Shown: positions 6,458 to 8,810 of the stretch, one piece after another
Layout: each line of letters opens with the position of its first letter
Numbering within the stretch: the stretch's first letter is position 1
DNA from: Acaryochloris sp. IP29b_bin.148
GTDB lineage: Bacteria > Cyanobacteriota > Cyanobacteriia > Thermosynechococcales > Thermosynechococcaceae
Reading direction: 5' to 3'
DNA length: 64,000 bases
NCBI RefSeq assembly: GCF_028285565.1
Contig: NZ_JANQOY010000090.1
Location: 62,001-126,000, forward strand
Position numbers and translations under genes: made by a program
Notes under the pieces: model-generated
Seen by the model: only the letters and a program-made list of their open reading frames with translations
Told to the model about the DNA's origin: nothing
Databases searched by the model: none

Positions 6458-6656
6458 TGCCTGACAACTACCTAAAGGTGACAATACTGTTACACTGTAG
6501 CAATTTTCTGCCGCTAGAATTGGGGGAAAGACCGTACATACGGATTTGTCCGAGAAATTGTTCCCAAGTCAATGGCCCGCGTATCACTTTATTAGCGGAA
6601 TTTCGATGCAGAAGGAAACTGGCTAGACTGTAACTACCTCACCAGTGGAGCAATTG

Positions 6657-7421
6657 ATGATGGTTCTTGCCCAGCCTTCTGCCGCCGAAGCAGAGATTAT
6701 TTACCCTAGCTCTGATGGAGAACCGTTGGCCGAAACTTCAGTTCATGTGGATGCCATCATTCATGCTGTCGTTACGCTGCGGCAACATCTTGCCTCACAA
6801 CGGGCAATTGTCTTGGCTGATCAATTTCTCTACTATGCTCAGGGCTATCCCAAACTAAGAGTCGCTCCCGATATTATGGCCATCTGGGATGTCCCTCCAG
6901 GACCTCGTGACAACTACAAAATTTGGGAAGAAGGTTCAGTCCCATCGGTTATTTTCGAAATCACCTCTGAAGGAACACAAAATCAAGATCAAAGCCATAA
7001 AAAAACCCTTTATGAGCAGATGGAGGTGCAGGAATACTGGCTGTTTGACCCTAAAGGGGAATGGATCGCCGAAAAACTGCGGGGTTACCGTTTAAGGGGT
7101 GAACAGTACGAACCCATTATGGATGGTTGTAGTCTGCCCCTAAAGTTGCGGTTACAAGTGGATGACACACGAATTGGATTTTATCGAGAAGACGGCGAGA
7201 AATTATTAGCGCCTGATGAATTAGTAGAAGCGCTGCAGACTGAAGTAAAGGCGCGTCAGGATGTGGAGACCCAGCTAGAACAAGAGAGACAACGAGCAGA
7301 AAAAGAACAGCAACGGGCTGAACAAGAGAGACAACGAGCAGAACAAGCTGAAATGCAAGTACAAGCGTTGATGGCAAAGTTGAAAGCAATGGAAACGGAT
7401 ATAGACGAATCAATGAGCTGA
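6657..7421 (+). CDS. Uma2 family (DUF820) protein with C-terminal coiled coil
   Basis: The first ~190 residues have the Uma2/DUF820 restriction-endonuclease-like fold, with PD-(D/E)xK-type elements APDIMAIWD and VIFEITSEG plus a following Lys. The family is greatly expanded in cyanobacteria and its function is unproven. The last ~60 residues form a charged coiled coil built of repeated QERQRAE units (positions about 7270-7350), a common tail in this family. Tandem ATGs occur at 6657 and 6660. GGAG at 6647-6650 lies six or nine bases upstream, so the farther GTG at 6645 is not needed. The region between it and the divergent clpR (6458-6656) should carry both promoters. Confidence 0.85.
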   Translation: MMVLAQPSAAEAEIIYPSSDGEPLAETSVHVDAIIHAVVTLRQHLASQRAIVLADQFLYYAQGYPKLRVAPDIMAIWDVPPGPRDNYKIWEEGSVPSVIFEITSEGTQNQDQSHKKTLYEQMEVQEYWLFDPKGEWIAEKLRGYRLRGEQYEPIMDGCSLPLKLRLQVDDTRIGFYREDGEKLLAPDELVEALQTEVKARQDVETQLEQERQRAEKEQQRAEQERQRAEQAEMQVQALMAKLKAMETDIDESMS

Positions 7422-7473: not shown

Positions 7474-8109
7474 ATGGATATGGTGAATCAATGGACGTCT
7501 GCCGAGCATGTGCTGGGTTATCTAGCGAGAGCCGATCAATTTCCCCATCGCACAGAAGGAGAGGCTGTTCTGCTTGAGCATGTTCCGCAGTCTGCTCAGC
7601 GAATTCTGGATTTGGGAACAGGGGATGGCCGATTGCTGACGCTTCTAAAGATTGATCGTCCCCATGTAGACGGGATAGCGATGGATTTTTCGCCAACAAT
7701 GTTGGCTGCCGTACGGCAACGATTTGCAGAGGATTCCCAAGTTACCGTTGTGGACCACAATATGGATGAGCCATTACCTCCATTAGGTCAGGTTGATGGG
7801 ATTGTCTCTAGTTTTGCCATTCACCATCTCGCCCACCCGCGTAAACGCACTCTATACCAAGAAGTGTTTGAGTTGCTAAAGCCTGGAGGTGTTTTTTGCA
7901 ATCTAGAACATGTTGCCTCGCCTACCCCCAAACTGCATCAGCAATTTTTGCAGGCGCTTGGAATTGCACTGGAAGACGATGATCCCTCTAATCAACTGCT
8001 GGATGTAGAAACGCAACTGAGTTGGTTGAGAGAAATTGGTTTTGAAGATGTGGACTGTTATTGGAAGTGGCTAGAGATGGCGTTGCTGATTGGGGTGAAA
8101 CCGCTATGA
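7474..8109 (+). CDS. SAM-dependent class I methyltransferase
   Basis: This 211-residue soluble enzyme has the Rossmann-like methyltransferase core. Motif I is ILDLGTGDGRLLTLL, followed by an acidic loop (VDGIAMDFSPTML), VVDHNMDEPLP, and the post-motif GIVSSFAIHHLAHPRKRTLYQEVFELLKPGGVFCNLEHV. The methyl acceptor is unknown. Its stop codon overlaps the start of the RidA/PchB-like fusion gene by four bases (ATGA), which implies translational coupling and possibly a shared pathway. A second in-frame ATG at 7480 is an alternative start. AAGGG just upstream could serve either. Confidence 0.85.
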   Translation: MDMVNQWTSAEHVLGYLARADQFPHRTEGEAVLLEHVPQSAQRILDLGTGDGRLLTLLKIDRPHVDGIAMDFSPTMLAAVRQRFAEDSQVTVVDHNMDEPLPPLGQVDGIVSSFAIHHLAHPRKRTLYQEVFELLKPGGVFCNLEHVASPTPKLHQQFLQALGIALEDDDPSNQLLDVETQLSWLREIGFEDVDCYWKWLEMALLIGVKPL

Positions 8110-8810
8110 CACAGGCTGTTCAACGAGTGGGTTCTGGAACTCCGTGGGAAGCACAGGTGGGCTACTGCCGGGCAATCCGGGTCGGTAACCAGATTTATGT
8201 TTCGGGAACCGCTCCGGTGGATGCTGAAGGACAGGTGGTCTCTGCGGAGGGGTATGCTCAAGCCAAACGATGCTTAGAGATTATCCAAACTGCTTTGCAA
8301 CGGCTTGGAGCGGATACGCATGCTGTTGTGCGAACCCGCATGTTTGTCACTGACATTGCCCAATGGGAGTTGTTTGCACAGGCTCACCAAGAATTTTTTG
8401 GGTCTCATCCTCCTGCCACGTCGATGGTTCAAGTCAGTGCTTTGATTGATCCGGCCATGCTGATTGAAATTGAAGCAGATGCGATTTTTTCTATGGATAG
8501 CTCTACAGCGTCGCGGGTGAATGCTCAGAACTGTCGTGATATGACCGATATTCGTAGGGCAATTGACCAAATTGATGCTCAGGTGATTGAGTTGTTAGGT
8601 CAACGCTTTGAGTATGTGAAAGCGGCTGCCCAGTTTAAAGCCGATACCCAAAGTGTTCAAGCGCCTGAGCGCTTAAAAATGATGCTGCAACAGCGTCGAC
8701 AATGGGCTGAAGCAGCGGGTTTAGATCCCGATGTGGTTGAAAAGCTCTATCGAGACTTAGTGGACTATTTTATTAAGTCTGAGCTGGCCCATTGGCGATC
8801 CTCGCAATAG
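8106..8810 (+). CDS. RidA-like domain fused to a chorismate mutase / isochorismate pyruvate-lyase (PchB-like) domain
   Basis: Residues 1-130 match the RidA/YjgF fold (VGNQIYVSGTAPVD, then IEIEADAIF). Residues about 143-231 match the all-helical AroQ chorismate mutase fold and most resemble PchB, which splits isochorismate to salicylate and pyruvate. The remembered PchB sequence aligns without gaps, so Arg14, Arg31 and Lys42 correspond to Arg150, Arg167 and Lys178. PchB Gln90 corresponds to Glu226. The RidA arginine normally needed for imine hydrolysis (Arg105 in the PARS motif of E. coli RidA) is Thr here (HPPATSMVQV), so plain deaminase activity is doubtful. The start is the ATG at 8106, overlapping the methyltransferase stop. 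Confidence 0.85.
   Translation: MTQAVQRVGSGTPWEAQVGYCRAIRVGNQIYVSGTAPVDAEGQVVSAEGYAQAKRCLEIIQTALQRLGADTHAVVRTRMFVTDIAQWELFAQAHQEFFGSHPPATSMVQVSALIDPAMLIEIEADAIFSMDSSTASRVNAQNCRDMTDIRRAIDQIDAQVIELLGQRFEYVKAAAQFKADTQSVQAPERLKMMLQQRRQWAEAAGLDPDVVEKLYRDLVDYFIKSELAHWRSSQ

Follow-up and report, generated by a model that had tools for sequence, protein, structure and literature searches.

A two-gene unit in Acaryochloris joining a methyltransferase gene to a fusion of a Rid domain and a PchB-like, predicted isochorismate pyruvate-lyase domain

The window, that is, the whole stretch of 64,000 nucleotides analysed here, belongs to a cyanobacterial genome (G000; 5.07 Mb, 251 contigs, 87% complete) whose nearest named relatives are metagenome-assembled Acaryochloris genomes. 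It contains a two-gene unit with the following features.

7474..8109, + strand: class I SAM-dependent methyltransferase (211 aa) that opens the two-gene unit (PF13649, 1.3e-17; orthologues elsewhere)
8106..8810, + strand: Rid::PchB fusion gene, 234 aa, with its ATG and the methyltransferase TGA in a 4-base overlap
8151..8486, + strand: Rid (YjgF/UK114) domain, Rv2704-like, residues 16-127 (PF01042, 1.5e-26; best PDB match 3i7t; residue table)
8487..8540, + strand: linker between the two domains (residues 128-145); its sequence and length vary, and model confidence is low
8541..8804, + strand: predicted AroQ-alpha / PchB-like isochorismate pyruvate-lyase domain, residues 146-233 (NF005475, match to 2H9C, active-site table)

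The fusion is a single open reading frame of 234 aa counted from the ATG. Pfam places PF01042 at residues 16-127 (E 1.5e-26) and PF01817, the type II chorismate mutase (AroQ) family, at residues 149-226 (E 4.7e-20). The strands and helices of the AlphaFold2 model fit both expected folds (mean pLDDT 82.4), and linker segment 131-136 has a pLDDT below 50. Since the pTM is low (0.53), the relative placement of the two domains in the model is unsure. The initial annotation had read the gene as a YjgF/RidA domain joined to an AroQ-type domain, with a start overlapping the methyltransferase stop by four bases. Both the domain search and the structure prediction bear this out, and the ATGA overlap is present in G000 and in three of its relatives; the fused gene and the overlap are thus confirmed.

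The AroQ domain passes the NCBIfam isochorismate lyase model NF005475 (136.4 bits, cut-off 126), just misses TIGR01803 (72.8 vs 73.35 bits) and lies far below the cut-off of the general chorismate mutase models. Its alignment with PchB of Pseudomonas aeruginosa (PDB 2H9C/2H9D) covers residues 5-97 of 2H9C without a gap (phmmer, 2.1e-23), as the initial annotation had proposed. The counterparts named for Arg14, Arg31 and Lys42 of PchB also hold in the residue table: Arg150, Arg167, Lys178 and R189 of the fusion correspond to R14, R31, K42 and R53, and these four positions are invariant in the fusion and in the 13 stand-alone homologues aligned with it. The Glu reported at the PchB Gln90 position is there as well (Glu226), although it is not special to the fusion. 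All cyanobacterial homologues sampled have Glu at this position, which is therefore a trait of the clade.

Three further positions, given in PchB paper numbering, discriminate between lyases and mutases. Mutases mostly carry Glu at 55, Asp at 51 and Ser at 87; when PchB was engineered into a mutase, Glu55 was needed for high mutase activity, and Val55 was tied to lyase activity (Kunzler and co-workers, PMC12329711). Among the annotated lyases aligned in that study, lyase activity is confirmed for PchB only. The fusion resembles PchB in having a hydrophobic residue at the Val55 position (Leu190), Ala at the Ala51 position (Ala186) and an aromatic residue at the Tyr87 position (Phe222); the 13 stand-alone homologues have Phe, Leu or Val at 55, Ala (Ser once) at 51 and Phe or Tyr at 87. 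With the E. coli AroQ chorismate mutase (EcCM), the fusion shares the AroQ fold and the catalytic Arg/Arg/Lys, but lacks the mutase Glu52, Asp48 and the Ser at the Tyr87 position. The PchB-like, isochorismate-lyase-like character assigned in the initial annotation is upheld by these residues and by the NF005475 score, and lyase activity would be a better reading of the domain than mutase activity.

The genomic background was covered by family searches. G000 carries a MenF-type isochorismate synthase (TIGR00543, 338.8 bits, cut-off 224.75), so isochorismate should be available to a lyase. It also encodes an AroH-type chorismate mutase, which leaves no need for a second one. The fusion differs from PchB in having a Rid domain in front, and no siderophore genes were found beside it. 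No siderophore-type DHB/salicyl-AMP ligase scored above cut-off in seven Acaryochloris genomes, where no known salicylate consumer was found; a siderophore route for salicylate was rejected on this ground.

The Rid half has its best PDB sequence match in Rv2704 (3i7t, 7.7e-24). This protein also comes first among the Rid structures matched by the fusion model in Foldseek (E 3.8e-12, TM by target 0.88, 40% identity). The domain shares the fold and the Tyr17 and Glu120 positions with the RidA imine deaminases; in its clade, position 17 is Tyr (Phe once) and Glu120 is retained. However, Thr stands where E. coli RidA has the catalytic Arg105, in agreement with the initial annotation, and Rv2704 has the same replacement. 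In all aligned Rid relatives this position is Thr, Ser, Asn, Ala, Cys or Met and never Arg. The domain thus falls, by sequence, in an Rv2704-like clade that lacks the imine-hydrolase arginine. According to Niehaus and co-workers (PMC4433059), Rid subfamilies without Arg105 are unlikely to hydrolyse imines; for those numbered Rid4-Rid7, which lack it, they call both activity and role completely unknown.

Chorismatases belong to the wider Rid family (cited in PMC4433059), and the initial annotation had suggested a chorismatase-like use of the fold. When the Rid half was compared with PDB sequences, the matches at E<=10 included no entry named as a chorismatase (FkbO/Hyg5/XanB2 type), and the 50 fold matches listed for the fusion model name none either. 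The link was rejected, the relation being one of shared superfamily only. The domain is most economically read as structural or ligand-binding.

Unlike the fusion, Rv2704 and related Rid proteins are stand-alone and have no AroQ partner. The closest Rid relatives in two non-cyanobacterial genomes (L004:4229-4906, L005:5027-5995) come after a gene that by eye resembles an aldolase of the HpcH/HpaI type; the two genes overlap or all but touch. Rid genes of the clade to which the fusion domain belongs are also found next to a methyltransferase-like gene in three different cyanobacterial families (L099:1489-2577, L101:1495-2579, L105:1489-2651); that gene and the methyltransferase of the window belong to unrelated families.

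Four of seven Acaryochloris genomes carry the two-gene unit intact. In pairwise comparison of these four, dN/dS is about 0.05-0.14 in each fusion domain wherever dS could be estimated, and both domains are under purifying selection across the four species. The linker evolves faster than the domains and differs in length between species. The same fused frame in four genomes and these dN/dS values show that the fusion is neither a chance product nor an assembly error; the latter was rejected since four separate genomes share the frame. In G006 (L065:4490-4745), what is left of the fusion gene is short, interrupted by stops and lacking a large internal piece, next to an intact methyltransferase gene. 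At intact loci an ABC gene comes after the fusion gene; in G003 (L127:3930-4570), the fusion gene is missing and a frame-broken methyltransferase gene directly abuts the ABC gene, itself frame-broken. Neither gene of the unit is present at the locus in G002. With the fusion broken or missing in three of the seven genomes, it must be dispensable. The unit is thus genuine: some species keep it under selection, and others can do without it. Upstream, a Uma2-like gene (named by eye; 6645-7421 of the window) lies between two clpP genes and the methyltransferase gene; it occupies the same spot in G003 and was not seen at the other loci, which indicates insertion or loss there.

A fusion covering both halves was found neither in plasmids nor outside Acaryochloris among 386 cyanobacterial genomes. 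A scan of species genomes with short peptide patterns, which reaches close relatives only, likewise revealed no Rid::PchB fusion outside the genus. PchB-like genes score above the family cut-off in 13 of the 386 cyanobacterial genomes; all except that of the window are stand-alone and encode roughly 100 aa, and one further PchB-like gene occurs in G016, a genome of the same family as the window. The stand-alone proteins (NF005475) have 52-64% identity to the fusion domain and the same active site with Glu at 90, but carry no Rid domain and have no neighbour of the window's methyltransferase family. Genes closely related to the Rid domain (54-67% identity) stand alone in six further cyanobacterial genomes as well as in Gemmatimonadota and others; the Rid tree does not single out the nearest of them. 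Acaryochloris is the only genus that close Rid relatives and PchB have in common.

Since the PchB-like, Rid and methyltransferase genes exist apart elsewhere, it was in Acaryochloris that the three became neighbours and two of them were joined. The fusion is a local rearrangement; other cyanobacteria keep these genes separate. The two domains are therefore separate genes outside the genus, as the initial annotation had considered for close relatives, and not inside it; the wider search for the same fusion and its neighbours, suggested there too, found the unit intact within Acaryochloris and no fusion beyond. Literature searches returned no description of a Rid-PchB fusion, of salicylate in Acaryochloris or of a link between PchB and NrtR, and the architecture appears to be new to the literature searched and the collections scanned.

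At some loci outside the genus, the stand-alone PchB-like gene lies between a gene for an NrtR-like Nudix regulator and nadE, following nicotinate phosphoribosyltransferase and nadD. This order was seen in eight genomes, six of one genus (L055, L056, L057, L059, L061, L062) and two of another family (L060, L063); models confirmed the gene families in L056 only.

The methyltransferase and the fusion are probably co-translated, as their four-base overlap suggests. Among the cyanobacterial genomes sampled, 19 others have an orthologue of the methyltransferase (64-72% identity). No PchB match at all exists in 13 of these, and none of the 19 loci has a PchB or Rid gene nearby. At the genome level the methyltransferase and PchB coincide in 7 of 386 genomes, namely six from one genus and that of the window. 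With the genus of the window set aside, one genus of 142 has both, which is chance level (p 0.44), and a pathway link based on co-occurrence was rejected. The Pfam matches of the methyltransferase up to E 1 are mostly general class I models, and none is a model for SABATH, the family of salicylate methyltransferases. An enzyme so widespread in cyanobacteria, and usually found without PchB, leaves a shared pathway unsupported. Methylation of the AroQ product, as initially proposed, is possible but likewise unsupported.

We favour, with a probability of roughly 0.55, the reading that the fusion couples an isochorismate pyruvate-lyase to a Rid module that is no deaminase and serves in oligomerisation and ligand binding. 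In the C-terminal AroQ domain, R150, R167, K178 and R189 would hold isochorismate drawn from the phylloquinone branch through the MenF-type synthase, and a pericyclic [1,5] elimination would convert it into salicylate and pyruvate. The N-terminal Rid domain would act neither as an imine hydrolase nor as a chorismatase. Rid proteins are trimers and AroQ domains are dimers; their presence on one chain would therefore force a higher-order assembly. What the data show is the two domains, the retained fusion, the catalytic and lyase-type residues and the isochorismate synthase gene; the lyase activity with its salicylate product, the Rid function and the assembly are inferred. Several observations weigh against this reading: Glu in place of PchB Gln90, the narrow miss of TIGR01803, the lack of a recognised salicylate consumer in the seven genomes, lyase activity being confirmed for PchB alone among the annotated lyases aligned in PMC12329711, and the decay or absence of the gene in three of the seven genomes.

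A different view of the join itself is that it has no function and represents a neutral fusion of genes with independent roles, which is tolerated as either domain can fold by itself and is now disappearing. This is rather unlikely, yet it agrees with the confinement of the fusion to one genus, with its decay in G006 and absence from G003 and G002, and with the fact that close Rid relatives and PchB never occur together elsewhere. Strong purifying selection on both domains, kept in one reading frame in four species, argues against it. As it concerns the join only, it leaves room for the AroQ domain to have lyase activity. That activity is itself questioned if the domain acts on another isochorismate- or chorismate-like substrate, the fusion having inherited the role of the stand-alone homologues in the NAD cluster. 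The gene order conserved in eight genomes of two families and the Gln90-to-Glu change kept in all cyanobacterial homologues sampled would fit such a role. It is nevertheless improbable, since five other PchB loci outside the genus lack the NAD cluster, the active site otherwise matches PchB, and gene order alone may be accidental.

The domain might also be mainly a second chorismate mutase supplying prephenate for Phe and Tyr, with weak lyase activity at most. Its AroQ fold is consistent with this, as is Glu226, because Glu at the Gln90 position presumably occurs in some true mutases too, such as yeast CM. PchB itself has weak mutase activity (PMC12329711). The lyase-like Leu, Ala and Phe at positions 55, 51 and 87, the AroH mutase already in the genome and the low scores with general mutase models make this quite improbable. 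Still less can be said for the whole unit being one pathway, with a Rid domain that carries out chorismatase-like chemistry or takes over the product, and a methyltransferase that methylates this product. The overlap kept in four species, the chorismatases of the wider Rid family (cited in PMC4433059) and the related Rid genes beside a different methyltransferase-like gene in three other cyanobacterial families speak for it; but neither the PDB sequence matches nor the fold matches listed name a chorismatase, the methyltransferase is found mostly in genomes without PchB, and close Rid relatives occur without PchB. This reading is very unlikely. The same low credence is given to the idea that the Rid and PchB domains form one enzyme, whose Rid half would process or channel an unstable isochorismate-derived intermediate while the methyltransferase, translated along with it, would complete a small cyanobacterial pathway, not reported before, to a methylated aromatic.

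If the lyase activity favoured here is real, salicylate would be formed in cyanobacteria from isochorismate, an intermediate of phylloquinone synthesis, by way of a PchB-like clade in which Glu replaces Gln90. The protein would then also be a natural fusion for probing what Rid proteins without the deaminase arginine do. Having such a domain, with its defined substrate, on the same chain makes the Rid role testable.
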